The translations under genes were made by a program, and so were the position numbers. Positions 12,326 to 63,387 of a stretch of DNA of 64,000 bases are shown piece by piece; the first letter of the stretch is position 1, and each line of letters opens with the position of its first letter. Source of the DNA: Rhizophagus irregularis (lineage: Eukaryota > Glomeromycota > Glomeromycetes > Glomerales > Glomeraceae). The notes beneath the pieces are model-generated. The model was not told the DNA's origin, did no database searches, and saw only the letters and a list, made by a program, of their open reading frames with translations. Location: NCBI RefSeq assembly GCF_026210795.1, contig NC_089435.1, positions 372,001-436,000 on the forward strand, given 5' to 3'.

Positions 12326-12417
12326 TATTCCTTTTAAGTAACCTAATTCATGAAATATTGAAAAAATTTTCGTCTTAATAATTTTTTTAGTAAAATAAAT
12401 TTCTAAAATAAAAACAA

Positions 12418-15400
12418 ATGGAAACCAAATTTAGTAAATCTAATATCTCAGTTGCTGATATAGTAAACACCAAAAATTGTTTATATTGCAATAAACCCTT
12501 TACTGAAGAATTATGGTGTAAAGAATGTATTAATTCTTTAGAAAAATCAGCAGAAAATGGTAATAAAGTAGCAATATTTAATTTAGCTAAAAGGTATTAC
12601 AATGGGGAAGGAACAGAAAAGAATTTAGAAAAAGCCTTTTATTGGTATCAAAAAGCAGCAGAAAATGGTGATGAAGAGGTAATGCATAATTTAGCTTTTT
12701 GTTATTACAATGGAGAAGGAACAGAAAAGAATTTGGAAAAAGCCTTTTATTGGTATCAAAAAGCAGCAGAAAATGGTTTCATTTATTCAATGCATAATTT
12801 AGCCTTACGTTATTACAATGGAGAAGGAACAGAAAAGAATTTAGAAAAAGCCTTTTATTGGTATCAAAAAGCAGCAGAAAATGGTTTCACTAATTCAATG
12901 CATAATTTAGCCTTTTGTTATGAAAATAAAGAAGGAACAGAAAAGAATTTAGAAAAAGCCTTTTATTGGTATCAAAAAGCAGCAGAAAATGGTTTCACTA
13001 ATTCAATGCATAATTTAGCCTTACATTATTACAATGGAGAAGGAACAGAAAAGAATTTAAAAAAGGCCTTTTATTGGTATCAAAAAGCAGCAGAAAATGG
13101 TTTCACTATTTCAATGCATAATTTAGCCTTTTGTTATGAAAATGGAGAAGAAACAGAAAAGAATTTAGAAAAAGCCTTTTATTGGTATCAAAAAGCAGCA
13201 GAAAATGGTGATGAAGAGGTAATGCATAATTTAGCCAATTGTTATTACAATGGAGAAGGAACAGAAAAGAATTTAGAAAAAGCCTTTTATTGGTATCAAA
13301 AAGCAGCAGAAAATGGTTTCACTATTTCAATGCATAATTTAGCATTACGTTATGAAAATGAAGAAGGAACAGAAAAGAATTTAGAAAAAGCCTTTTATTG
13401 GTATCAAAAAGCAGCAGAAAATGGTTTTACTATTTCAATGCATAATTTAGCCCTACATTATTACAATGGAGAAAGAACAGAAGAGAATTTAGAAAAAGCC
13501 TTTATTTGGTATCAAAAAGCAGCAGAAAATGGTTTCACTAATTCAATGCATAATTTAGCCTTACGTTATTACAATGGAGAAGGAACAGAAAAGAATTTAG
13601 AAAAAGCCTTTTATTGGTATCAAAAAGCAGCAGAAAATGGTTTCACTAATTCAATGCATAATTTAGCCTTATGTTATTACAATGGAGAAGGAACAGAAAA
13701 GAATTTAGAAAAAGCCTTTTATTGGTATCAAAAATCAGCAGAAAATGGTTTCACTAATTCAATGCATAATTTAGCCAATTGTTATTACAATGGAGAAGGA
13801 ACAGAAAAGAATTTAGAAAAAGCCTTTTATTGGTATCAAAAAGCAGCAGAAAATGGTTTCACTATTTCAATGCATAATTTAGCATTACGTTATTACAATG
13901 GAGAAAGAACAGAAGAGAATTTAGAAAAAGCCTTTATTTGGTATCAAAAAGCAGCAGAAAATGGTTTCACTAATTCAATGCATAATTTAGCCTTACGTTA
14001 TTACAATGGAGAAGGAACAGAAAAGAATTTAGAAAAAGCCTTTTATTGGTATCAAAAAGCAGCAGAAAATGGTTTCACTAATTCAATGCATAATTTAGCC
14101 GTATGTTATTACAATGGAGAAGGAACAGAAAAGAATTTAGAAAAAGCCTTTTATTGGTATCAAAAATCAGCAGAAAATGGTTTCACTAATTCGATGCATA
14201 ATTTAGCCTTTTGTTATGAAAATGGAGAAGGAACAGAAAAGAATTTAGAAAAAGCCTTTTATTGGTATCAAAAAGCAGCAGAAAATGGTTTGACTAATTC
14301 AATGTATAATTTAGCCTTTTGTTATGAAAATGAAGAAGGAACAGAAAAGAATTTAGAAAAAGCCTTTTATTGGTATCAAAAATCAGCAGAAAATGGTTTG
14401 ACTAATTCAATGCATAATTTAGCCTTTTGTTATGAAAATAAAAAAGGAACAGAAAAGAATTTAGAAAAAGCCTTTTATTGGTATCAAAAAGCAGCAGAAA
14501 ATGGTTTTACTGATTCAATGCATAATTTAGCCTTTTGTTATGAAAATGAAGAAGGAACAGAAAAGAATTTAGAAAAAGCCTTTTATTGGTATCAAAAAGC
14601 AGCAGAAAATGGTTTCACTAATTCAATGCATAATTTAGCCTTACATTATTACAATGGAGAAGTAATAGAAAAGAATTTAGAAAAAGCCTTTATTTGGTAT
14701 CAAAAAGCAGCAAAAAATGGTTTTACTGATTCAATGCATAATTTAGCCTTACGTTATTACAATGGAGAAGGAACAGAAAAGAATTTAGAAAAAGCCTTTT
14801 ATTGGTATCAAAAAGCAGCAGAAAATGGTTTCACTAATTCAATGCATAATTTAGCCTTATGTTATAACAATGGAGAAGGAATAGAAAAGAATTTAGAAAA
14901 AGCCTTTTATTGGTATCAAAAAGCAGCAGAAAATGGTTTTACTAATTCAATGTATAATTTAGCCTTACATTATTACAATGGAGAAGGAACAGAAAAGAAT
15001 TTAGAAAAAGCCTTTTATTGGTATCAAAAAGCAGCAGAAAGTTGTTTCACTAATTCAATGTATAATTTAGCCATTTGTTATGAAAATGGAGAAGGAACAG
15101 AAAAGAATTTAGAAAAAGCCTTTTATTGGTATCAAAAAGCAGCAGAAAATGGTTTCACTAATTCAATGTATATTTTAGCCTTTTGTTATGAAAATGGAGA
15201 AGGAACAGAAAAGAATTTAGAAAAAGCCTTTTATTGGTATCAAAAAGCAGTAGAAAATGGTGTTAAAGAGGCAATGCATAATTTAGCCTTACGTTATTAC
15301 AATGGAGAAGGAACAGAAAAGAATTTAGAAAAAGCCTTTTATTGGTATCAAAAAGCAGCAGAAAATGGTGAAAAAAAAGCAATGAATAATTTAGCCATAT

Positions 15401-17374
15401 GTTATTACAATGGAGAAGGAATAGAAAAAAATTTAGAAAAAGCTTTTTATTGGTATCTTAAATCAGCAGAAAATGGTTTCACTGATTCTATGTATAATTT
15501 AGCCTTACGTTATTACAATGGAGGAGGAACAGAAAAGAATTTAGAAAAAGCCTTTTATTGGTATCAAAAAGCAGCAGAAAATGGTTTCACTAATTCAATG
15601 TATAATTTAGCCTTTTGTTATGAAAATGGAGAAGGAACAGAAAAGAATTTAGAAAAAGCCTTTTATTGGTATCAAAAAGCAGCAGAAAATGATGTTGAAG
15701 CAATACATAATTTAGCCAATTCTTATTATAATGGAGAAGGAACAGAAAAGAATTTAGAAAAAGCCTTTTATTGGTATCAAAAAGCAGCAGAAAATGGTTT
15801 CACTAATTCAATGCATAATTTAGCCTTTTGTTATGAAAATGGAGAAGGAACAGAAAAGAATTTAGAAAAAGCCTTTTATTGGTATCAAAAAGCAGCAGAA
15901 AATGGTTTCACTAATTCAATGTATAATTTAGCCTTTTGTTATGAAAATGGAGTAGGAACAGAAAAGAATTTAGAAAAAGCCTTTTATTGGCGTCAAAAAG
16001 CAACAGAAAGTAACAAAATAGATTTTAAAAATGAAGTTGAATTATGCAATATATGCAAACAGCTATATACTAATTACCAGTGGTGTCAACAATGTAATGT
16101 CAAACAATTTCAACAAGATTTTTCAAAGTGGACCAGTAAAAATGAATTTATTGATAAATTTATTCAAGAAGCACAACTAAATGCCAAAAATAGTTATGAA
16201 ATTTTAGAATGGATACCTTATAATAAATTGTCAAATATCAATTATTATGATAAAGGAGGATTTAGTGAAATTCATAAAGCTATCTGGTTAGATGGTCCTA
16301 TTTTTAGTTGGAATTTTGACAAACAACAATGGAATAGACAATTAGGTTATGAGGTTATTCTTAAAACACTTAATAATTCATCAAGTTTAAATAGTAAATT
16401 TCTGGATGAGGTATATATATTATTTATATTTATTAGCAATTTTTTTTTCTTTTACAAAAATTAATTTTGTTTTATTATTTATACAGTGGAAATATCATTA
16501 TAATTGTCAGAAAAAATCATTTTCAAAATTTATTCAATTTTTTGGATGTACCCAAGATCCAAATAATTTAAATTATATAATAGTAATGAGTTATGCAAAA
16601 AAAGGAAGTTTAAGAAAATGTTTGTCTGATATAATTAAATTTAAATGGCAAGAAAAGTTACAATTATTGAAAAAAATTGTATTAGGGCTCAAAGTAATTC
16701 ATGAATCAAATTTAACTCATGGTGATTTTCATGATGGTAATATTTTAATATCAGATAATTACAATGAGTTATTTATTATTGATTTAGGATTATGTAAACC
16801 TATAAATGATTTACAAGATTCTGACAATAAAATTAAAGAAATTTATGGAGTTTTACCTTATATGGCACCTGAAACATTAAGACAAAAACCCTATACACCA
16901 GCAAGTGATATTTATAGTTTTTCAATGATAATGTGGGAATTTACATCAGGTATTCCTCCATTTAATCGTGTAGCACATGATCATCACCTTATTTTGAGTG
17001 TCTGTGAAGGGAAACGCCCTGAAATTGTTGAAAATACTCCAAAATGTTATATAGATTTAATGAAAAAATGTTGGGATTCAGATCCTTCCAATAGACCGAC
17101 CATAACAATGCTCGAAGATATTATATCTGAGTGGATTAGATGTATTAATGAATATTATAGAATAAACAGGGATGGAAATTATAAATTTGTAGTATCTAAT
17201 ATAGATAATAAATTAAAAGATGATATGTTTGAATTTATAAAAGCAAACAAAACTTTAGTACAAGAACAAGCAAATGCTTCTATTATACAATCACATACAC
17301 AAGCATATTATACAAGTCGTAAATTTACTGAAATCTTAAATACTGGTTGTCTTGAATGTGAAGTTAATATTTAA
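12418..17374 (+). CDS. Sel1-kinase A: 32 Sel1 repeats fused to a kinase
   Basis: Two exons, 12418-16410 and 16487-17374, joined over a 76-bp GT-AG phase-0 intron, encode 1626 aa. Order: a four-Cys ribbon (Cys21, 24, 34, 37); 32 Sel1 repeats of 36 aa (one of 35) from about residue 44 to 1198; a second four-Cys ribbon (about Cys1210, 1213, 1223, 1226); a linker with KWTSKNEFID and EWIPY; then a TKL-type kinase. The kinase has a reduced glycine loop (DKGGFSE), VILK lysine at about 1316, HGDFHDGN (D1411, N1416) in place of HRD, DLG in place of DFG, and an intact APE. Catalytic Asp, Asn and both metal-site residues remain, so activity is plausible. The Sel1 solenoid probably binds partners; I infer a signalling role. 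The intron sits between the start of helix C and the rest of the N-lobe. Confidence 0.9.
12550..16010 (+). repeat. 108-bp tandem coding repeat, 32 units
   Basis: The Sel1 repeats of gene A are nearly identical 108-bp units. Most unit differences fall at the same few positions (the two residues before Y, YN versus EN, and the last six). Units 9-11 and 13-15 show the same succession (GERTEE unit with FIWY, standard unit, KSAENG unit), which indicates duplication of a four-unit block of about 432 bp. Confidence 0.9.
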
Positions 17375-22200: not shown

Positions 22201-23443
22201 TTATCTTGTAATTTGAAATACTTCATATTCTTCCACAGAAAATAAATCAGAAAATAAATCAGTAGTTTCACTGATTTGTTTTTCGTAAGCAAAATTACCA
22301 CATACATTTACCAAAATCTCCATCTAAAACCAAGTCACTGATACCAAATAATGGTCCACGATCAAAGGAGTTAAGTATAGCGACTTTTTCATTTTTTATA
22401 CGACTTAAAATATAACTTTTAATATCATTATATCTCTTAAACGAGAATATAAAACTGTCCTTAGTAGTGCCATAAGAATCATCAGACTTCCATTCAATTG
22501 GATTATATCCACCAAAAATTTCCTTACTGACTTTCACCTTAATAATTGTTACAGTACGAGATTGATTATCACAAATTTCATGAAATTTTTTATATGTAAA
22601 TCCATCACGAGATCCACAAAGTAACAATTTGAATTTGTATGTATTTTTTATCTCATCTGTAATTTCAGTTCTATCGATCCATTTTGAGATTAATTCAGCA
22701 TGTCGAATTGTAATAATTTTGGAATCAATGGAATCAATATTAATTTCTTCAGTAGTAATATGAGGTTTTGATGTTTTACTTGATTGGATACTGGGTTTCA
22801 AGAAATATTTTAATAAATCTTCATATAATTCCTTTAATATAATTTTTTTATAAGGCAATACTTTATCTGCAAATTCTTCAGAAGTTAAATTATAGAATCT
22901 AATATGTGGAACGCAATGTTATAAACTATTTTTCAAAGCATTAAAATCTTCTTTTGAAAAATTAGTAGGATCGGAAGGTTTTGGATTTTGAGCAAGTTTC
23001 CATCTAAGCACATTTTTCCATACTTGAATTTCATTCATTTGAAGATTATCACTTTGAATAAGTGAAACCAAAAGTTTTTCTGAAATTGAGGAAAAATTTA
23101 GAGATTTATATATCTTGTTTGGCTCTTTGGTTATTAAATTATTACAAAATTCTTAAAGTTCCAAGAAAGAATCATTCTCAAAACTTGTCTTATATATCAA
23201 ATCAAAATTAAATTCCATCCAATTTGCCTTAGTTTCAATCAAAAAGGATTGTAAATAAGTGGTTAATTCTTGGAGACCAAGTTCACTACCAGAAACTAAG
23301 ATATCCAAAGTATCATGCAGATATGCTTGATAGTTTTGTGTTACATGAAAAATAATGACATCATTGCAGATCTTGATAATTTACTCTTTTCCGTTAATAT
23401 AAAAAATTTTAAATATTTTTTTTGCTAAAGTTTTATTATCCAT
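22201..23443 (-). pseudogene. BACK-TLDc pseudogene (BTB part lost)
   Basis: Read on the minus strand this is a relative of the BTB-BACK-TLDc gene at 28996-30453. From 23443 a few residues remain where the BTB domain should be, with a stop among them, then the BACK region (ELGLQELTTYLQSFLIE, NLQMNEIQVWKNVLRWKLA) and a TLDc domain (ISKWID, IFGGYNP, TTKDSFIFSF). Two in-frame TAA codons sit where the family has a Gln: after SFLEL, near 23154, and after KNSL, near 22921. A frameshift near 22302 puts the family ending VEEYEVFQI into another frame. The longest intact piece, 22295-22858, spans most of the TLDc domain. I infer a dead gene copy. Confidence 0.8.
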
Positions 23444-28995: not shown

Positions 28996-30453
28996 CTATT
29001 TTTTAATTACTTTAAATACTTCATAATCTTCTACTTCGAAATTTGTTGGGATTCCTATTTTAGAATAGCGATTTCCACTATCGTAATTATTATAACACCA
29101 ATTATTATTATAACAGGTTAAATTACCCATAGTTGGACCATGACTATCGCCACAAAAAACTGCAAGTTGTGAAGAATTAACATAACTTACTCTTGCAGCA
29201 TAAGTATTTTTTCCATTTGGAAAATTAAATAAAAAACTATCTGCTGTAGTTTTCCATGCCCAACTTACATCCCAATCAAGGGGATTGTATCCTCCAATTA
29301 ATTGTAATGAATTTTTAATTTTTGCTACCCAAATAGTAGCTCCTTTATTATCACAATTTTTATGAAAATCTTTAACATCATTTCCATCCTGACTTAAGCG
29401 ATATAATAATTCAAATTTATAAGGAATATTTTTTCTATTATAACATGAAGAACTTTTTTTGTCAATCCATGAAGCTAAAATAGAAACATTGTTTGGTTCA
29501 ATTAAAGTTGATTTAAAATTAGTTTTTCTTGAAGGTGTAAAATTGGATTTAGGTTTTATATTAGGAACAATATGAAATTCTAAAAGATCATGAATTAATT
29601 CCTGTGGTAAGATATCTTTATAACAATATACTTTATAAAAGAAATCTATGGGATCAATATCGTAAAATCGAATTAAAGGGATAAATCTTTGTAATGCCTT
29701 CTCGATCTTTGTAATATCTTCTTTATTCCATTTTGATGGTTCATTCTTTATATTTTGTTGAGTAAAACACCATTTTAACAAATTCTCCCAAATTTCAATT
29801 TCTTCCATATTTAAATCATCCCTTTTTAATAACGATTCTAATAAAGGAGCTTTTAAATAAATAAATCTATCAGAATTAAATAAAACTTGAGGTTCTTTAC
29901 AGATATTTTCAAGACAGAAATTCCATAAATCTGTAAATGTTTCATATTGATAAACAGTTTCAAGAATTTCAGTTGGATTTTGATATAAAAATTCAGTTTG
30001 ATGTTTAATCAAAAATTCTTGAATATGAGATACTAAAGGATGAAGATTAAGTTCATCAACTGCTATTAACAATTTCAATATGTCAGAACCTTGTAAATTC
30101 TTTAATTCAATATTTCCACAATAAAAAAACCTATTAATATAATGATTAATTAATTAAACTTTTTCTTTAAAAAAAAATATGATTATTAAAAATAAATACC
30201 TAAGAATAATATTAAATAATTGTGGAGAAATATTTGGTTTTTTGAAAATAAATTTTCCATCTTTCTTTTCAGCCCATTCATTAGAAAATGCAGAGCGAAA
30301 ATATTGAGACCTAATAGATAAAATATTAGAATGAGCATGAATTTCTTTAACATATTGCTCTTCACCAGCATAAATAATAACGTCATATCCAATTTCTGTT
30401 TCAAAAAGTTTTTCATAATCGCTAGATAATTCTGCCCAAAATTTTGAAGACAT
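28996..30453 (-). CDS. BTB-BACK-TLDc domain protein, 462 aa
   Basis: Two exons (30200-30453 and 28996-30130) over a 69-bp GT-AG intron (30131-30199) that splits an Arg codon encode 462 aa. A BTB/POZ domain (about 20-125, YDVIIYAGEE, IHAHSNILSIRSQYFRSAF), a BACK region (about 129-250, EIWENLLKWCF) and a TLDc domain (about 295-457, ASWID, IGGYNPLDW, TTADSFLFNF, NFEVEDYEVF) follow in order. BTB-BACK proteins often serve as Cullin-3 substrate adaptors; TLDc domains are linked to oxidative stress protection and V-ATPase regulation in eukaryotes. That is family knowledge; the client here is unknown. ATG 30453 is chosen because MSSKFWAELSSDYEKL is the typical opening of this fungal family. All domains look complete. 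Confidence 0.88.
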
Positions 30454-33873: not shown

Positions 33874-36800
33874 TTATTCTGATTGATTATAAAGGTTTAT
33901 TCCGATTGCACACTCTAAACATTCACTATATTTTGGAAGTTCTTTTGTAAAAGAATTAAGTATTCGAGATGTATAAATAGCCTGGAGATGAGTATCTGGT
34001 TGATTATTTTTATATATTCCATCATTGTTTAATCTATATTCTTCTGCTTCTTTAAATTGATCTTCGTAATTTGAATAAAATAGACTAATCATTTTTTCCA
34101 CCTCAGCAACATTGGGTCTATTAATTGGATTTAAATCCCAACACTTTTTCATTAAGTCAACATAACACTTAGGTGCTTCTGGCTTATTTATTTCAGGTCT
34201 AGTGCCATTACATATGTCTAATGCTAAAAACTCATCATGTGCACAATTTGCAAAAGGTTGTCTTTCAGTTGCTACAAAATACATAATCATTCCAAAACTA
34301 AATATATCTGCTGCTTTAGTATAAGGACCTCCTCTTAATACTTCAGGAGCTACATAAGGCATAACTCCATAAATTTTTGTTTCATCTACATTATCAACTT
34401 CTCCACATAATCCCATGTCAGAAATGTAATTTGAAGTAATCCAATAATAAGTATCCTTAAATAATATATTTCCTGTATGAAAATCACGATGAACCATATG
34501 CTTTTGATGTATCTCTTTAAGACCATTAATAATATTCTTTAATACTTTTAATTTATTTATCCATTCAAAATGCTTATAATTTTTCTTCATCCAATTGTTA
34601 AAATTTCCTCCTCTTGCATATTGTAGAACCATAACATAGGTTTTTGTATTAGGGTTCTGAGATATTCCATAAATTTTTAGAATTTCGCCAGAATTATTAA
34701 TATTATTGAGGTCATTAATTGAATATGCTTTAACCTAAAGATAAAGAATCAATTATATTCAAAAGAATTATATTTAAGTACAAAAGTTAAAAATTCTTTT
34801 ACCTCGTTAAAAAATTTATTAGAGAAGTTTTGTGAATTATTTAAACATTTTAAAGCCACTGTTTTATTAAAATCTCTTATATATTCCTTTTCATTCCAAC
34901 ATAATGGACCGTCCTTCCATCTTGCTGAATATACCTTAGCAAACCCACCTTTACCTATTTCTTTAATCTCATTGAACTGATCATAAGGTATCCATTCAAA
35001 TATTATGTCTTTATAATCATTAATTTTTAATTGCATTTCTTGAATTAATTTATCAATTTGTTCATTATCACTGGTCCAGTTTGTAAAATTTTCTTTTAAA
35101 TGATTTATTTGACATGATTTACACCATTTATACTTTGCATCTATGTATTTAATAGAACATTTATCACAAAAATATCTAAAATATTGATCATAACTAAAAA
35201 CTATGATGTAGTCTTTTGTATTGCGATTATGAGTTATTCCATATATTTCAAATTCGTCATAGCATGATGTAATCTATTAAGAAGAATATTAATACTTTAG
35301 AAAATGTTTGAAATAAATTTCTAGAAAACTTACGTACCTCATTCAAAAATTCGTTTGTAATATTTTCTGAATTAAATAAGTATTTTAAAGCAACAGTTTT
35401 ATCTGCTGTATTTCTTACATATTTCTTCTCATTCCAACGTAATGGACCATCCTTCCATCTTGCTGAATATGCTGTATTATTGCCTATTTTTTCAATATCA
35501 CTAAACTGATAATATGGTATCCATTCAAATATTATGTCTTTATAATCATTAATTTTTAATTGCATTTCTCGTATTAAATTATCAATCTGCTCATTTTCAC
35601 TGGTCCAGTTTGCGAAATTTTCTTTTAAATAATTTATTTGGCATAGTTTACACCATCTATACTTTGCACTTATGTATTTTCTAGCGCATTTATCACAAAA
35701 AATTCTAGAATATTGATCTTGATTAAGAATTAGGATGTAATCTTTTGTATTAGGATTTTGAGTTATTCCATATATTGTAAGAAGTTTGTCATAATATTCC
35801 ATAATCTATACATTAACAAAAAGTATTAATAATATAGAAATACTTGAAATAAAATATATAAAAACTTATATACCTCCTTTAAAAGTTTACTAGTAATATG
35901 TTGCGAATTAACTAAACATTTTAAAGTAACTATTTTATTCAATGAATTTCTTGTATATGTATTATTGTAATAATAATATGACAATGGTCCATCCTTCCAA
36001 CTTGCTAAATATACTGTATTGTTACTTGCTTCTTCAATTTCAATAAACTGATAATACGGTATCCACTCAAATATTGTATTCTTATAATTATTAATTTTTA
36101 ATTGCATTTCTTGAATTAAATTATCAATTTGTTCATTTTCGCTGGTCCAATTTATGAAATTCTTTTTTAGCCACTTTATTTGACATAGTTTACACCATTT
36201 ATACTCCATATTTACATATCTATTAGCACATTTATCACAAAAAATCTTAAGGTATTGATTTTCATCAAGGACTATAATGTAATCTTGTGTAATAGGATTT
36301 TGAGTTATTCCATATATTTTGAACTTGTCATAATATTCTACAATCTGTTAAAAAATTATTTATAATGTATATAAGAAGTATTTTTAAATCGAATTTATAG
36401 AAGAATTACATACCTCATTCAAAAGCTTATCAGTAATGTTTTGTGAATTGTTTAAATATTCTAAAATAACTACTTTATTTACTGAATTTCTTACATATTT
36501 CTTTTTATTCCAGTACAATGAACCTTCATTCCATTTTGCTGAATATACTAAATTATTTAATTCTTTAATATTATCAAACTGGCTATATGATATCCATTCA
36601 AATATTATATCTCTATGACTTTTAATTTTTAATTGCAGTTCTTGAATTAAGTCATCAATTTGTTTATTCTCACTGGTCCAGCTTGTAAAATTTTCTTCTA
36701 GCCAGCCTACTTGACATGGTTTGCACCATTTATATTCTGATTTTGTATAATACTCTTCACATTTTACACAGCAATTTTCCAAATATTGATCTTTATTAAA

Positions 36801-39800
36801 TATTATAATGTAATTCATTGTATTAGGATTTTGAGATATACCATATATTTTAACTTTATCATAATATGTTATAATCTATTGAAAAAAAAATCAATACTTT
36901 AGAAAACATTTGAAATAGATTTCTAGAAAACTTGCATACCTCATTTAAAAATTCATTTGTAATATTTTCTGAATTAATTAAGTATTTTAAAATAACTGCC
37001 TGATTTGCTGAATTCCTTGTGTATTTTTCTTTATAGTAATTATATAATAATGGACCATCCTTCCATTTTGCTGAATACACCATATTGTCTAATTCTTCAA
37101 TATTACTAAACTGATAGTAAGATATCCATTCAAATATTATATCTTTATAATCATTAACTTTTAATTGCATTTTTTGAATTAGTTTATCAATCTGTTTATT
37201 TTCACTGGTCCAGCTTGTGAAATATTTTTCAAAACAATTTATTTGACATGCTTTACACCATTTATACCATGACTTTGTGTAATATTTTCCACATTTTATA
37301 CAGCAATTTCCTAAATACTGATTTTTATTAATTATTATAATATAATCTTTTGTATTAGGACTTTGAGATATACCATATATTTTAACTTTATCATAATATG
37401 CTATAATCTATTAAAATAATAAGTATCAATATACTATAATTAGTTGAAATTAACTTCATAAAAAAATTTACATACCACATTTAAAAATTCATTTGTAACA
37501 TTTTGTGAATCAACTAAATATTTTAAAATAACTTCTTGATTTGCTAAATTTCTTGTATATTTATTTGCATAATAGACATATGATAATGGACCATCTTTCC
37601 ATTTTGCTGAATACACTTTATTATTACCTACTTCTTTAATATCACTAAATTGGTTATATGGTATCCATTCAAATATTACATCTTTATAATCATTAACATT
37701 TGATTGCATTTTTTGGATTAATTTGTCAATTTGTTTATTTTTACTAGTCCAGTTTGTAAAATTTTCTCTTAACCAATTTATTTGACATGGTTTGCACAAT
37801 TTATACTCTGATTTTGTGTAATACTTGTCGCACTTTATACAGCAATATTTTAAATATTGATCTTCATTAAATATTATAATGTAATCTTTTGTATTAGGAT
37901 GCTGAGATATACCATATGTTTCAATTTCATTATAATATGTTATTATCTATTAAATAATAATATTATATTAATATTACAAAAAATATTTGAAAATAAATTT
38001 ACAAAAAACTAATATATACTACCTTCAAAAATTCACTAGCAATATCTAGTGGATTGATTAAATATTTTAAAATAACTGCTTTATTTAAATCTTTATGCTT
38101 TTTTTCATTCCAATATAATAAACTATCTTTCCATTTTGCTGAATATATTTTATTGGTTAATTCAATAATATTATTAAACTGATTATATGGTATCCATTTA
38201 AATGTAATATCTTTATAATCATTTATTTCTAATTGTTTCTTTTGAATTAGGTTGTCAATTTTTTCATCTCCACTAGTCCAGTTCGTGAAATTTTCTTTTA
38301 GCCAGTTTATTTGACATGGTTTGCACCATTTATACTCTGATTTTGTGAAATATTTTTCGCATTTTATACAGTAATTTTTCAAATATTGATCTTTATTAAA
38401 TATCATAATGTAATCTTTTGTTTTAGGATTTTGTGACATACCATATATTTTAGCTTTATCATAATAAGCCATAATCTATTAAAAATGTATCAATATATTA
38501 TGTTGTACCGTAATGTACTTGAAATTAAATTCATAGAAAATTTACATACCTCATTTAGAAACTCATTAGTGATATTTTGTGAATTTACTAAATATTTTAA
38601 TACAACTGCAATATTTGTTAAATTTCTTGTATATTCATTCTTATAATAGTTGTTATATGATAATAAACCATCTTTCCATATTGCTAAATATGTTGTATTG
38701 CTTAATACTTTAATATCATTAAATTGATTGTATGATATCCATTCAAATATTATATCTTTATGATTATTAATATTTAGTAACTGCATTTTTTGAATTAAAC
38801 TATCAATTTGTTCATTCTTGCTGGTCCAGTTTGTGAAATTTTCTTTTAACCAATTAATTTTACATGGTTTACACCATTTATACTCTGATGTTGTGTAATA
38901 CTTTCCACATTTTATACAGCAATTTTCCAAATATTGATCTTTATTAAATATCATAATGTAATCTTTAGTATTAGGACTTTGTGATATACCATATATTTTA
39001 ACTTTATCATAATATGCTATAATCTATTGAAAAATTATTAACAATACAGAAAGTAGTAGAATTAAATTTATTAGAAAAACTTACATACCTCATTCAACAA
39101 TTCATTAGTAATATTTTTCGAATTAACTAAATATTTTAAAATAATTGGCTTATTTGCTGAATTTCTTGCATATTCATTTTTATAAAAATAGTTACTATAT
39201 GATAATGGGCCATCCCTCCATCTCGCTAAATATGCTATACTGCTTAATTCTTCAATATCATTAAACTGACAGTACGGTATCCATTCAAATATAATATCTC
39301 TATAATTACTAATTTTTAATTGCATTTTTCGAATTAGATTATCAATTTTTTCATTTTCACTGGTCCAATTTGTGAAATTTTCTTTTAACCAACTTATTTG
39401 ACAATGTTTACAACATTTATATCGTTTGTTCCATGCATTTGTGTAATACTTTCCACAATTTACACAGCAATCTTCTAAATATTGATCTTTATTGAATACT
39501 ATAATATAATCTTTTGTTTTAGGATTTTGAGATATGCCATATATTTTAAATTCACCATAAGTTGCCATAATCTATTGAAAAAAAATATTAATAATAGTAG
39601 AAATACTTGAATCAAAATATATAGAAATTTGTAATTTTGTATACCTTTTTCAGAAATTCATTCGTAATATTTTGTGAATTAACCAAATATTTTAAAATAA
39701 CGGATTTATTTGCTGAATTTCTTGCATATTCTTCATTATAATAGTTATATGATAATGGACCATTCTCCCATTTCGCTGAATATACTATATTATCTAATCT

Positions 39801-40526
39801 TTCGATATCATTGAACTGGTAATATGGTATCCATTCAGATATTGCATCTTCATAATCATTAATACTTAATTGTATCTCTTGAATTAAATTGTCAATTTGT
39901 TCATTTTCACTGGTCCAGTTCATGAAATTTTCTTTTAACCAATTTATTTGACATGGTTTACACCAGTTATACTCTGAATTTGTATAATACTTTCCACATT
40001 TTATGCATTTTCCATAAAAGATTTCAAAATTTTTTAATATAAAAAACTCAAAATCATTGTAATAATCCTCTATTTGGTATTGTCTGAACTGTATAAAAGC
40101 ACAAAATTATTATTATAATTACTGTATAGTAAAAAAAAAAAATTATTTAATTATAAAATTTCGTACCTTATTTAGACCTTTTAAAACTTCATTATATAAA
40201 TACACTTTTAAAGCAACTATCCTATTTGATTTTTTTATAAGTTCCTTTATATTCCAATTTAATGGACTAAATTTCCATATTGTTGAATATACCGCATTGC
40301 TTATTTCTTTAATTCTATCAAATTGATTGCATGAGATCCATTCAAACATTATATCTATGTAACAATTAATTTTTAATTGTATTTCTTGAATTAGATTATC
40401 AATATCTTTATTTCCACTAGTCCAGCTTGTAATTTGACATGTTTCACACCATTTATATTTAATATTTATGTACATATTGCCGCATTTTACACACTTGTTT
40501 GTGTTATTTGTTAATAAGTTCTGCAT
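33874..40526 (-). CDS. Multi-N-lobe kinase: 11 ribbon/N-lobe modules plus one full kinase domain
   Basis: Twelve exons, all phase 0, with eleven GT-AG introns of 64-78 bp, give an unbroken 1961-aa protein. Exons: 40167-40526, 39645-40088, 39089-39571, 38550-39023, 38023-38475, 37476-37946, 36940-37407, 36414-36875, 35874-36344, 35338-35805, 34803-35273, 33874-34734. Each of exons 1-11 encodes a four-Cys ribbon (CxxC...WCxxC; W is Leu in exon 6), a FTNWTSENEQIDNLIQ linker, an EWIPYxQF segment and a kinase N-lobe up to helix C. Exons 3-11 begin with the helix C to hinge segment YYDKxKIYGISQNP of the preceding lobe. Only exon 11 keeps a glycine loop (GKGGF, 1625-1629); exons 1-10 have lost it. 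The lysine (VxLK) remains except in exon 8 (VILE). Exon 12 adds the C-lobe: HRDFHTGN (D1759, N1764), DMG (1781-1783), APE (1804-1806). I infer one active TKL-type kinase behind ten degenerate lobes. Separate genes are unlikely, because no module but the first has a start upstream and none but the last has a stop. Confidence 0.82.
34803..40088 (-). repeat. Tandem exon-intron repeat, about 540-bp unit, 10 copies
   Basis: Ten consecutive units each comprise one 444-483-nt exon and one 64-74-nt intron. Exons 4-8 resemble one another most (CCIKCGKYY, CKPCQINWLKENF), and exons 9-11 form a second group (FCDKCA, CxLCQIN, YGIT), so there were at least two rounds of amplification. Introns are also alike: donors GTATGT or similar and acceptors CTATTGAAAA-like on the plus strand. 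Confidence 0.88.
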
Positions 40527-48399: not shown

Positions 48400-51300
48400 T
48401 TAAATTTTAATTACACATTCAAAACACTCAGAATTTTCTTGAACTAAGATTTCAGTAAGTCTGCGACTTGTATAATATGCTTGTGAATGAGATTGTATAA
48501 TAGCAGTATTTGCTTGTGGATGATATTGTATAATAGAAGTATTTGCTTGTTCTTGTACTAAAGTTTTGTTTGCTTCTACAAATTCAATCATATCATCTTT
48601 TAATTGATCATCAACATTAGATACCTTAAATTTATAATCTCCATCCCTGTTTATTTCATAATATTCATTAATACATCTAATCCATTCAGATATAATATTT
48701 TCAAGCATTCCTATAGTTGGTCTATTGGAGGGATTTGAATCCCAACATTTTTTCATTAAATCTATATAACATTTTGGAGTATTTTTTATGATTTCAGGAC
48801 GTTTCCCTTTACAAATATTCAAGGTAAGGTGATGATCATGTGCCTCATGATTAAATGGAGGAATACCTGATGTAAATTCCCACATTATCATTGAAAAACT
48901 ATAAATATCACTTGCTGGAGTATAAGGTTTCATTCTTAATATTTCTGGTGCCATATAAGGCAAAACTCCATAAATTTCATTAATTTTATTATCAGTATCT
49001 TGCAAATCATTCATAGGCTTACATAATCCCATATCAATAATAAATAACTCATTGTAATTATCTGACATTAAAATATTACCATCATGAAAATCACCATGAG
49101 TTAAATTTGATTCATGAATTACTTTAAGTCCTAATATAATTGTTTTCAACAATTGTAACTTGTCTTGCCATTTAAATTTAATTATATCAGATAAGCATTT
49201 TCTCAAACTTCCTTTTTTTGCATAACTCATTACTATTATATAATTTAAATTATTTGGATCTTGGGTAAATCCAAAGAACTGAATAAATTTTGAAAATGAT
49301 TTTTTCTGACAATTATAATGATATTTCCACTATATAAATAAAAAAAAATCATTAAAGTTTTGCAAAAGATTATAAAATTTGCTATTAAATAAAAATACTA
49401 TACCTCATTCAGAAATTTACTATTTAAATTTGATGAATTATTAAGTGTTTTAAGAATGACTTCATAACCTGTTTGAAAATTACATCTATTCCATTGTTGT
49501 TTGTCAAAATTCCAACTAATAATAGGTCCATCTAACCAGATAGCCTTATAAATTTCGCCAAATCCTCCTTTATCATAATAATTAATATTTGACAATTTAT
49601 TATATGGTATCCATTCTAAAATTTCATAACTATTTTTAGCATTTAATTGTGCTTCTTGAATAAATTTATCAATAAATTCATTTTCGCTAGTCCACTTTAA
49701 AAAGTCTTGTTGGAATCGTTTAATATTACATTTTTGGCACCACTGGTAATCATTATATGGTTGCTTGCATTCATTACATAATTCAGCTTCATTTTTAAGA
49801 CCCACTTTGTTACTTTCAACTATTTTTTGATGCCAATAAAATGCTTTTTCTAAATTCTTTTCTGTTCCTTCTCCATTTTCATAACATAAGGTTAATAAAA
49901 ACATTGCGGTAGTATGTCCATTTTCTGCTGCTTTTTGATACCAATGAAAGGCTTTTTCTAAATTATTTTCTATTCCTTCTCCTTTAATATACATACAGGC
50001 TGAGTAAAACATTGCATCAGTATGTCCATTTTGTGCTGCTCTTTGATACCAATAAAATGCTTTTTCTAAATTCTTTTCTGTTCCTTTTCCTTCTTTATAA
50101 CATATGGCTAAACTATTCATTGCTTTAATATGATCTTTTTCTGCTGCTTTTTGATACCAGTGAAAAGCTTTTTCTAAATTTTTTTCTGTTTCTTCTCCAT
50201 TATTATACATGATGGCTAGATTAAACATTGCATTTTCATCATTTTTTGCCGCTTTTTGATACCAATAAAAGGCTTTTTCTAAATTCTTTTCTGTTCCTTC
50301 TCCTTTTTTATAATAAATGGCTAAATTGAACATTGCATTAGTATGTCCATTTTCTGCTGCTTTTTGATACCAATGAAAGGCTTTTTCTAAATTATTTTCT
50401 ATTCCTTCTCCTTTAATATACATACAGGCTGAGTAAAACATTGCATCAGTATGTCCATTTTGTGCTGCTCTTTGATACCAATAAAATGCTTTTTCTAAAT
50501 TCTTTTCTGTTCCTTTTCCTTCTTTATAACATATGGCTAAACTATTCATTGCTTTAATATGATCTTTTTCTGCTGCTTTTTGATACCAGTGAAAAGCTTT
50601 TTCTAAATTTTTTTCTGTTTCTTCTCCATTATTATACATGATGGCTAGATTAAACATTGCATTTTCATCATTTTTTGCCGCTTTTTGATACCAATAAAAG
50701 GCTTTTTCTAAATTCTTTTCTGTTACTTCTCCTTTTTTATAATATATGGCTAAATTACTCATTGCTTCTTCAATACCATTTTCTGCTGCTTTTTGATAAC
50801 AATGAAAGGCTTTTTCTAAATTCTTTTCTATTCCTTCTCCATTTTCATAACATACGGCTAAATTAAACACTGCATAAGTATGTCCATTTTCTGCTGCTTT
50901 TTGAAACAAATGAAAGGCTTTTTCTGAATTCTTTTCTGTTCCTTTTCCATTATAATAACATGTAGCTAAGTTAAATATTGCTTCTTTAACACCATATTCT
51001 GCTACTTTTTTATACCAATAAAATGCTTTTTCTAAATTCTTTACTGTTCCTTTTCCTTCTCCATAACATATGGCTAAATTATTCATTGCTCCTTCAACAC
51101 CATTTTCAGCTGCTTTTTGATACCAATAAAAGGCTTTTTCTAAATTCTTTTCTGTTCCTTCTCCTTTTTTATAATAAATGGCTAAATTGAACATTGCATT
51201 AGTATGTCCATTTTCTGCTGCTTTTTTATACCAATGAAAAGCTTTTTCTAATTTTTTTTCTGTTCCTTCTCCATCATAATAACACATGGCTAAATAAACC

Positions 51301-52328
51301 ATTGCAATAGTATATCCATTTTCTGCTGCTTTTTGATACCAATAAAAGGCTTTTTCTAAATTCTTTTCTGTTCCTTCTCCATTATTATACATGATGGCTA
51401 AATTAGACATTGCATTAGTATGTCCATTTTCTGCTGCTTTTTTATACCAATAAAAGGTTTTTTCTAAATTCTTTTCTGTTCTTTCTCCATAATTATACAT
51501 ACTGGCTAAATTAAACATTGCATTAGCATATCCTTTCTCTGCTGCTTTTTGGTACCAATAAAAGGCTTTTTCTAAATTTTTTTTTGTTCCTTCTCCATTA
51601 TAATATTTATCGGCTAAATTAAAACTTGCTTCAATATGGTCTTTTTCAGCTGCTTTTTGTATCCAATAAAAGGCTTTTTCTAAGTTCTTTCCTGTTCCTT
51701 CTCCTATATAATAACACACTTCTAAATTAAACATTGCATTAGTATATCCATTTTCTGCTGCTTTTTGATACCAATAAAAGGCTTTTTTTGAATTCTTTTC
51801 TGTTCCTTCTCCATTTTTATACATACAGGCTAAATTAAAAATTGCTTCAATATAGTCTTTTTTGGCCGCTTTTTGCATCCAATAAAAGGCTTTTTTTAAA
51901 TTCTTTTCTGTTCCTTCTCCAGTATAATGATATATGGCTAAATTAAAAATTGCTTCAATATGGTCTTTTTCAGCTGCTTTTTGTATCCAATAAAAGGCTT
52001 TTTCTAAATTCTTTTCTGTTTCTTCTCCATTATAATATATACTGGCTAGTTTAAACATTGCATCTTCATCATCATTTTCTGCTGCTTTTTGAAACCAATT
52101 AAGGGCTTTATTTAAATTCTTTTCTGTTCCTTTTCCATAATAATAACTATTGGCTAAATTAAACATTGCTACTATATTACCACTTTCTGCTAATTTTTCC
52201 AACGAATTAATACATTCTTTACACCACAATTTTTCAGTAAAAGGCTTATTGCAATATAAACAATTTTTGATGTTTATTAAATTAGTATCTTTATCTGAGA
52301 TATTTGATTTACTAAATTTAGTAACCAT
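48400..52328 (-). CDS. Sel1-kinase B: 22 Sel1 repeats fused to a kinase
   Basis: Two exons, 49404-52328 (975 codons) and 48400-49329, over a 74-bp phase-0 intron give 1284 aa. Architecture matches gene A: N-terminal ribbon (CLYC, WCKEC), 22 Sel1 repeats, second ribbon (CNEC, WCQKC), KWTSENEFID linker, EWIPY and a TKL-type kinase. The glycine loop is DKGGFGEIYKA, with a better Gly pattern than in A; the VILK lysine is present; the catalytic loop reads HGDFHDGN, the metal motif DMG, and APE is intact. Repeats are more varied than in A (units ending EKDHIEA, ENGHTNA, KNDENA), except for a recent block duplication at 49911-50724. A probable signalling kinase with a scaffold arm; its partner is unknown. 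Confidence 0.9.
49911..50724 (-). repeat. Perfect 385-bp tandem duplication, period 429 bp
   Basis: 49911-50295 and 50340-50724 are identical by eye over 385 bp; the period of 429 bp equals four Sel1 units (143 aa). Units 14-17 and 18-21 of protein B are therefore the same apart from their edges. This points to very recent unequal exchange, or less likely to an assembly error. Confidence 0.85.
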
Positions 52329-52423
52329 TTGGTTTTATTTTTGAGATAAATTTTGCTAAAATTTTATTTTTTTAAAAATTTTTTTTCTCGTTCAATGAAT
52401 GAGTTACTAGAAGGGAAAATTTT

Positions 52424-61353: not shown

Positions 61354-63294
61354 TTAATCTTCAATTACACAATCAAAACCCTGAGTCTCTTGAACTAAAA
61401 TTTCACTAAGTTTGCGACTTGTATAATGTGCTTGTGGATGAGATTGTATAATAGAAGCATTTACTTGTTCTTGCACTAAAGATTTGTTTGCCTCAACAAA
61501 TTCCAACATAACATCTTCTAATTGATTATCAACATTAGGTACAACATATTCATAATCTCCATTACTATTTATTCTATAATAATCACTAATACATCCAATC
61601 CATTCAGATATAATATTCTCAAGCATTATTATAGTTGGTCTATTAGCAGGATCTGAATCCCAACATTTTTTCATTAAATCCACATAGCATTTTGGAGTAT
61701 TTTCTATAATTTCAGGACGTTTCCCTCCACAAATACTCAAGATAAGCTTAAAATCATGTGCTTCATAATTAAATGGAGGAATACCTGATGTAAATTCCCA
61801 CATTATCATTGAAAAACTATAAATATCGCTTGTTGGAGCGTAGGGTTTTTTTCTTAATATTTCAGGAGCCATATAAGGTAAAACTCCATAAATTTCATTA
61901 ATTTTATTAGCAGTATCACTTATGGGTTTACATAATCCTAAATCAATAATAAATAACTCATTTTGATTATCTGACATTAAAATATTACCATCATGAAAAT
62001 CACCATGAGTTAAATTTGATTCATGAATTACTTTGAGTCCTAATCAATAAATGTAATCTGTCTTGCCACTTAAATTTAATTATATCAGATAAACATTTTC
62101 TCAAACTTCCTTTTTTTGCATAACTCATTACTATTATATAATTTAAACTATTTGGATCTTTAGTAATTCCACAGAATTGAATAAATTTTGAAAATGATTT
62201 TTTTTGACAGGTATAATGATATTTCCACTATATAAATAATAAAAAAATTATTAAATTTTTGCAAGAGAAAATAAATTAGCTATAAAATAATATAAATAAC
62301 ATACCTCCTCCAGAAATTTATCATTTAAATTTGATGAATTATTAAGTGTTTTAAGAATAACCTCATAACCTGTTTGAAAATTACATCTATTCCATTGTTT
62401 TTTGTCAAAATTCCAACTAAAAATAGGTCCATCTAACCAGATAGCTTTATGAATTTCACTAAATCTTCCTTTATCATAATAATTAATACTTGACAATTTA
62501 TCATAAGGTATCCATTCTAAAATTTCATAACTATTCTTAGCTTTTAATTGTGCTTCTTGAATAAATTTATCAATAAATTCATTTTTACTAGTCCACTTTG
62601 AAAAATCTTGTTGAAATTGTTTAGTATTACATTGTTGGCACCACTGGTAATAAGTATATGGTTGCTTGCATTCATTACATAATTCACCAGCTTCATTATT
62701 ATAACTTACTTCATTACTTCTTGTTGCTCTTTGTTGCCAATAAAAGGCTTTTTCTAAATTCTTTTCTGTTCCTTCACCATTATAATACATACCAGCTAAA
62801 TTATTCATTGTACTAGTATTACCATGTTCTGCTGCATTTTGATACCAAGAAAAGGCTTTTTCTAAATTCTTTTCCGTTCCTTCTCCACTATAACAACACA
62901 TGGCTAAATTAAACATTGCTTCTTTAACACCGTTTTCTGCTGCTTTTTGATACCAATAAAAGGCTTTTTCTAAATTCTTTTCTATTCCTTCTCCATATTC
63001 ATAACATACGGCTAAATTATTCATTGCATCTGCATCACCATTTTCTGCTGCTTTTTTATACCAGTAAAAAGCTTTTTCTAAATTCTTTTCCGTTCCATTT
63101 CCACCTTCATAACGTATGGCTAAATTAAATATTGCTTCTCTATTACCATTTTCTGCTAATTTTTCTAAAGAATTAATGCATTCTTTACACCATAATTCAT
63201 TAGTAAAAGGTTTACTGCAATATAAACAATTTTCGTTATTTATTGTATTGATATCATTATTTGAAATATTTAAATTGCTAAATTTCGTTCCCAT
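61354..63294 (-). pseudogene. Sel1-kinase C: 4 Sel1 repeats, kinase frame broken
   Basis: Gene C has the same plan as A and B: exon 1 62305-63294 (330 codons) with ribbon (CLYC, WCKEC), only 4 Sel1 repeats, second ribbon (CNEC, WCQQC), KWTSKNEFID and EWIPY, then a 77-bp intron and exon 2 61354-62227. Relative to A and B, 11 bp are missing near 62046 (between LHLL and GLKVIH), which shifts the frame and gives a stop ten codons on, ahead of the catalytic loop. The downstream frame restarts at 61977 and still encodes DLG, APE and the C-lobe. The glycine loop is also altered (DKGRFSE). I infer a recently inactivated kinase; a truncated ribbon-Sel1-N-lobe protein could still be made. Confidence 0.85.
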
Positions 63295-63387
63295 TTTTTA
63301 TTTAGAAACTTATTTTATTGAAAGAATTTATTTTTTTTTGACAAATTTTTTTTTATATTTTATTGAGTTTACTAAAAAGGAATACTT

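Follow-up and report, generated by a model that had tools for sequence, protein, structure and literature searches.

Why would a genome carry the first half of a protein kinase many times over in one gene, and the second half only once? The question is raised by a minus-strand gene at positions 40526-33874 of the 64,000-nucleotide stretch of Rhizophagus irregularis DNA analyzed here, which we call the window. An earlier note on this DNA had described twelve phase-0 exons with no internal stop, separated by GT-AG introns of 64-78 bp. Rebuilding the gene from stop-to-stop frames and splice sites confirmed this structure: 12 exons, the first at 40526-40167 and the last at 34734-33874, each with a length divisible by three, and 11 introns, all GT-AG, all phase 0 and all 64-78 bp long. 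The coding length is 5886 nt, or 1961 amino acids plus the stop codon, with no internal stops.

Exons 1-11 each encode a CxxC...CxxC motif, a linker that begins WTS, and a stretch running from β1 to αC. The order within an interior exon is β4-β5 of the preceding N-lobe, a four-Cys ribbon, the linker, and β1-β3-αC of the next N-lobe, and the introns sit directly 3' of the αC Glu position. We take these strand and helix labels from known kinases by analogy, with no structure behind them. Because an interior exon begins with the β4-β5/hinge of the preceding N-lobe, each N-lobe spans two exons. The claim that eleven exons each hold a ribbon, a linker and an N-lobe therefore stands for the Cys motifs, the WTS linker and the β1-αC stretch, but the N-lobe itself is split over two exons. 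Read through, the chain is ribbon-linker-N-lobe eleven times, with the eleventh N-lobe running into the sole C-lobe. At the DNA level this supports the proposed 1961-residue chain, in which N-lobe modules precede a single intact kinase.

The modules differ in detail. Exon 1 (40167-40526) contains the start codon, ribbon, linker and a divergent β1-αC stretch; exon 2 (39645-40088) has ribbon, linker and β1-αC, and no hinge can be recognized where exons 1 and 2 join. In both, the αC Glu is replaced by Lys. Exons 3 (39089-39571) and 4 (38550-39023) show the full series of β4-β5 hinge, ribbon, linker and β1-αC. The same unit recurs in exon 5 (38023-38475), where the αC Glu is missing, exon 6 (37476-37946), where it is Val, exon 7 (36940-37407), whose open frame served as our genome query, exon 8 (36414-36875), where the β3 Lys is Glu, exon 9 (35874-36344), and exon 10 (35338-35805), which has lost the Gly loop and retained VALK. 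None of exons 1-10 has a Gly loop. GKGGF is found in exon 11 (34803-35273) alone, the terminal module, together with VALK and the αC Glu, and exon 12 (33874-34734) then supplies a longer αC-β4 segment, β4-β5, a C-lobe with HRD, DMG and APE, and the stop codon. All of these exons lie on the minus strand. The β3 Lys is retained in 10 of the 11 modules, and at the protein level interior exons share 56-74% identity with exon 7, so their resemblance is not due to chance.

Is the last part of this chain a kinase, and are the other modules N-lobes? Exon 12, the only exon with a C-lobe, matched PF07714 (E=7e-32), in agreement with the claim that only the last N-lobe is followed by one. Its catalytic motifs are VHRDFHTGN, ISDMG and VAPE, with the HRD Asp, the DxG Asp and APE present, and its best sequence matches in the PDB were TAK1 and RIPK1; this and the PF07714 match suggest that the window kinase is TKL-like. 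Exon 11 (GKGGFAKVY, VALK) spliced to the exon 12 hinge also matched PF07714 (1.4e-6). Exon 1, exon 7 and two spliced interior N-lobes, scanned against Pfam, gave no PF07714 match, and a profile of interior exons, run against the PDB up to E=1, matched no kinase. Pfam-type searches thus seem to miss the interior modules, and annotated kinase genes may consequently be shorter or simpler than the real ones. An AF2 model of exon 7, computed with nine other window exons, was poor (mean pLDDT 49.7, pTM 0.42), with an order of strands and helices that fits β4-β5, two helices, β-strands, β3 and αC. Since the model is poor, the interior fold is assigned by its similarity to the terminal N-lobe. The four Cys, a putative zinc ribbon, occur in all 11 window modules and, in the genes examined, in 139 of 156 inner modules and 8 of 9 single-module kinases whose open frame was long enough to show them (for 40 modules, counting every kind, it was too short). 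With its single C-lobe, the window gene lacks the two or more complete kinase or pseudokinase domains that characterize plant tandem kinase proteins.

The architecture had been presented as unknown from any described family. It is not peculiar to one gene: the layout recurs at dozens of loci. We searched the genome (32 contigs, 146,748,485 bases) with the exon 7 open frame and grouped matches on one strand within 3.5 kb into loci. This gave at least 150 matches at no fewer than 83 loci on at least 23 contigs, with 54 of those loci represented by one listed match. Since 149 of the best 150 matches begin at query residue 11 or earlier, those listed include the hinge that marks an array. We fetched a non-random set of 32 loci, 26 seen as arrays or candidates and six (L027-L032) picked in hope of simpler kinases. 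All 32, including those six, have a C-lobe exon preceded by more than one N-lobe module; the C-lobe is split by an insertion in L003, and in L017 its frame joins uncleanly. Searches of viral and prokaryotic contigs yielded no confirmed relative, which is unsurprising for a gene from a fungus. We recognized no description of N-lobe arrays in the portions of the literature searched, R. irregularis genome papers included, and such partial coverage does not prove absence.

Recurrence at many loci also bears on whether the assembly has multiplied or merged units. Repeats are a classic cause of misassembly, and the earlier note had named such an artefact as a way in which its reading could fail. The complete units of the window gene, however, differ from one another by a median of 22% of nucleotides and a minimum of 17%, and the many loci contain different sets of units. 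The published assembly of strain DAOM197198, as described in passages of Manley et al. 2023 (PMC10234402), used Nanopore reads with an N50 of 24,957 bp at 77-85x and uniform coverage; with an N50 of about 25 kb at that depth, an error across 6.7 kb is unlikely. We consider this the least credible of all the explanations weighed here.

Because the choice of fetched loci was biased, we took two systematic samples. The first, every tenth row of the best C-lobe matches, comprised 13 genes (11 newly taken and two already in the locus set), and all 13 were arrays among the best matches listed. The second, every ninth row of the best PF07714 matches, comprised 15 genes judged from ~1.7 kb of upstream sequence; among the best matches listed, 13 of these were single-module kinases and two were arrays. 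The array form is thus apparently dominant among kinases whose C-lobe is near that of the window kinase, and it appears also in a second branch, represented by L045 and L046. The modules of these two loci (subfamily H) are closest to each other and to the single-module gene L039, whose one N-lobe lies ~820 bp from its C-lobe exon. This closeness hints at, without proving, an independent origin of the subfamily H arrays.

The resulting dataset contained 46 arrays (45 loci and the window gene), with 13 single kinases for comparison. Arrays have 2 to 12 modules, up to 11 of them before the terminal one, though short fetches may undercount. A tree of 240 of the 272 modules, with incomplete and split modules dropped, resolved subfamilies but no clean division between terminal and interior modules. 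No ribbon was detected in one array subfamily (L028-L031, L049, L050, L052 and L058); in L028 and L030, the two of these loci that were read out, the hinge passes almost straight into the linker. In L006:1326-2222 and L013:1223-2209 (reverse-complement coordinates), two modules share one open frame, with no phase-0 intron found between them, which makes these frames useful for expressing a contiguous N-lobe.

Across this dataset, the Gly loop follows the position of the module. A GGF/GGY loop marks 44 of 46 terminal modules, all 13 single kinases and 4 of 213 non-terminal modules; for the 15 systematically sampled arrays the counts are 15/15 terminal and 2/39 non-terminal. In 41 of the 46 arrays it occurs in the last module and nowhere else. 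The non-terminal exceptions are in L004, L054, L055 and L005, and the terminal modules without it are those of L027 (GKNGF) and L005. In L005 the terminal loop reads NKSDF while module 2 retains GGF, and this locus is possibly an inactive or re-wired member.

Different lesions have removed the loop in different subfamilies. The stretch that contains it has become shorter in 118 of the 202 non-terminal modules in which it could be measured and in none of the 46 terminal or 13 single modules, where it measures 21-23 and 22 residues, respectively. The shortening is mostly by four residues in groups C7, C16a and C23, by five or three in C9, and by three in part of E. The stretch keeps its length in groups F, G and H, where substitutions have removed the GG, examples being DE or DD; NG with a following L; and SE, NE or DE. 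Other kinase residues have been lost less often. The β3 Lys is retained in 193 of 213 non-terminal modules and the conserved Trp in 206. At the last matched residue, the αC Glu site, 182 nearly complete non-terminal modules have Glu in 105 cases and Lys in 66, and the terminal modules have Glu in 45 of 46. To call the N-lobes degenerate, as had been done, is therefore too loose for modules that lose the Gly loop but mostly keep the β3 Lys, the Trp, the ribbon and their open frames. Only the last copy in an array seems to retain the parts needed for enzyme work. The family seems larger than first noted, with many signaling kinase genes that appear to carry an arm of their own front halves without the ATP loop.

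Four joins with gaps >700 bp and pairs with incomplete ends were set aside. Of the 190 remaining joins between consecutive modules, 180 can be spliced by a phase-0 GT-AG intron into a frame that stays open, and in 172 the donor coincides with the end of αC; the same search in other phases gave 38 solutions for phase 1 and four for phase 2. Likewise, 44 of 46 terminal modules lead by a phase-0 GT-AG intron into the C-lobe exon. This regularity would also suit a cassette for alternative splicing, in which a transcript would pair the C-lobe exon with just one of several interchangeable N-lobe exons, after the manner of mutually exclusive exons. With all 12 of its exons in phase 0, any exon of the window gene could join exon 12 in frame. 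However, 209 of 213 non-terminal modules lack GGF/GGY, so most choices would yield a kinase unable to hold ATP normally. In addition, the stretch from αC to β4 tends to differ, with a median of 11 residues in non-terminal modules (n=174) against 15 in terminal ones (n=44), the ranges overlapping. In kinases generally, this segment contributes to seating the N-lobe on the C-lobe, and the non-terminal modules have no C-lobe of their own. We regard a splicing cassette as improbable.

Could the arrays instead be decaying tandem kinase genes that happen to stay open? Loss of the Gly loop, the change of the β3 Lys to Glu in exon 8 and broken units in a few other arrays would all be expected of a pseudogene array. 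Three arrays, L002, L003 and L014, look broken or interrupted; L002 and L003 have long gaps between modules and, with the interrupted C-lobe of L003, are likely damaged copies. Yet all ten non-terminal exons of the window gene are open at a divergence of at least 17% between complete units, and under simulated random change at 0.10 substitutions per site an exon stays free of stops in 0.65% of cases. The joins are intact in 180 of 190 cases, and dN/dS is below neutral. On these frames, splice sites and dN/dS values of 0.6-0.8, we reject pseudogene status for the arrays, modest as the constraint is; decay of this kind is hardly credible as an explanation.

How strong is the constraint? Between non-terminal modules of the same array, median dN/dS was 0.61 (341 of 369 pairs, dS 0.05-1), and at dS 0.1-0.6 the median was 0.63 and the pooled value 0.67 (314 pairs). 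Pairs of terminal modules gave a median of 0.62 and a pooled value of 0.70 (559 pairs), and non-terminal pairs across different arrays 0.74 and 0.80 (2,262 used of 4,000 sampled); pairs in these comparisons are not independent. Neutral simulations with the same third-position composition pooled at 1.24, 1.11 and 0.88 for transition biases of 1, 2 and 4, and the cross-array value of 0.80 sits close to the lowest of these. Constraint on non-terminal modules is therefore real but modest, being only moderately below the neutral simulations. For the closest same-array pair in each of 40 arrays, pN/pS pooled at 0.77 and exceeded 1 in nine, from which it appears that young copies evolve fast.

The units also turn over. 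Window exons 2-11 share 72-83% of their nucleotides and introns 2-10 share 64-84%; as the introns are alike as well as the exons, the copied unit includes an intron. In each of the sister arrays L001-L003, the last module has window exon 11 as its best match, and the other units match mostly window exons 4, 7 and 8, without any consistent order. The four C7 arrays correspond in their last modules and not in the remaining ones. This pattern agrees with an arm in flux attached to a constant catalytic end. Introns 7 (36876-36939) and 10 (35274-35337) are 84% identical, the highest value of all intron pairs, and neither exons 7/10 nor exons 8/11 are the closest exon pairs; the likeness of these introns is possibly a trace of exchange or conversion.

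Such turnover is what one would expect if the arm were a by-product that the kinase tolerates. On this view, in-frame exons would accumulate through unequal exchange between phase-0 introns that resemble one another, the kinase would work despite its arm, and all that the modules must do is acquire no stops and not misfold. The symmetry of the phase-0 units and the similarity of their introns, a module number that ranges from 2 to 12, sister arrays without one-to-one non-terminal counterparts, the pooled pN/pS of 0.77 with 9 of 40 closest pairs above 1, and the pooled 0.80 between arrays are all consistent with this. Against it, the β3 Lys, the Trp and the ribbon Cys are largely retained in non-terminal modules, their constraint within an array equals that of terminal modules, and what has been lost, repeatedly, is one specific element, the Gly loop, with no general decay. 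We therefore rank the by-product as the main rival, with alternative splicing less likely, and judge it a possible but on the whole unlikely account.

For the observations made at the DNA level, namely the exon structure, the recurrence at many loci, a Gly loop almost restricted to the last module, and moderate constraint elsewhere, we lean slightly toward a different explanation: that the window gene encodes a TKL-type kinase of an expanded R. irregularis family, with an arm of tandem pseudo-N-lobes lacking C-lobes that serves in binding or self-association and gates the terminal kinase. In such an arm the kinase would repeat its own first half in tandem, each time a ribbon, a helical linker and an N-lobe, and each time with the C-lobe absent. 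It may have begun when two neighboring two-exon kinase genes fused at the hinge, the fused exon then being amplified by unequal exchange between equivalent phase-0 introns. Translated as one long chain, the non-terminal modules would fold as C-lobe-free pseudo-N-lobes unable to grip ATP, and their row would present protein-binding or self-association surfaces. The last N-lobe and the C-lobe would form the catalytic output, which binding partners of the arm would switch or cluster. The roles suggested earlier for the arm, a multivalent scaffold, a decoy or a sensor arm, are possible candidates.

A further step, which we put forward tentatively and doubt more than we believe, is that the arrays form a repertoire of kinases with recognition arms derived from themselves, in which the units change fast from locus to locus in number and sequence while the catalytic end stays fixed. 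Such arms might serve diversifying self/non-self, partner or symbiosis sensing, with kinase-like surfaces as bait.

How do the arrays compare with known systems? Single-module two-exon kinases of R. irregularis share with them the linker, the N-lobe, the intron after the αC Glu and the C-lobe, but have one N-lobe per C-lobe and no repeated N-lobe arm. Pseudokinase families, reportedly described by Kwon and colleagues in 2019 as catalytically altered kinase-derived domains, are said to be expanded in fungi. The Janus kinases of animals contain one whole pseudokinase domain and are not known to have repeats or a ribbon. They share with the arrays a pseudokinase part and a kinase in one chain, and the plant tandem kinase-pseudokinases of the WTK1/Yr15 family likewise join an inactive kinase-derived part to a kinase, as far as passages of one source describe them (PMC6170490). 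According to the same passages, the WTK1/Yr15 proteins combine a kinase with a pseudokinase domain, whereas the R. irregularis arrays repeat N-lobes only.

In R. irregularis itself, 2,533 kinases have been counted (Manley et al. 2023, PMC10234402), PF07714 is the commonest motif among expanded genes (Maeda et al. 2018), and expanded kinase and Sel1 families have been described (PMC8647823), in the passages of these papers that concern them. The kinases of this fungus number in the thousands, and a branch that multiplies only the N-lobe, having shed the ATP loop by various lesions from almost all copies other than the last, offers a natural experiment on the capacities of an N-lobe to which no C-lobe is attached.

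The window also contains three Sel1-repeat kinases, at 12412-17374 (+), 48400-52334 (-) and 61354-63297 (-), which have the same kind of ribbon-linker-N-lobe and C-lobe exons behind a repeat arm. They differ from the array gene in that their arms are Sel1 repeats (about 31, 22 and 4 copies) with one N-lobe each, while its arm is made of N-lobes; it has no tandem Sel1 array in 33874-40526, and the four of its exons that were scanned gave no Sel1 match. As the same ribbon-linker-N-lobe sits behind the Sel1 arms, we read the N-lobe array as another repeat arm, and by analogy the Sel1-arm kinases appear to be a parallel design. The ~31 Sel1 copies of the kinase at 12412-17374 are encoded by 108-bp DNA units that match at 91%, which suggests recent amplification or homogenization. 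The kinase at 61354-63297 has KGRF instead of KGGF. Elsewhere in the window, open reading frames at 28996-30153 (-) and 22295-22918 (-) encode TLDc domains, the former with a BACK domain as well.
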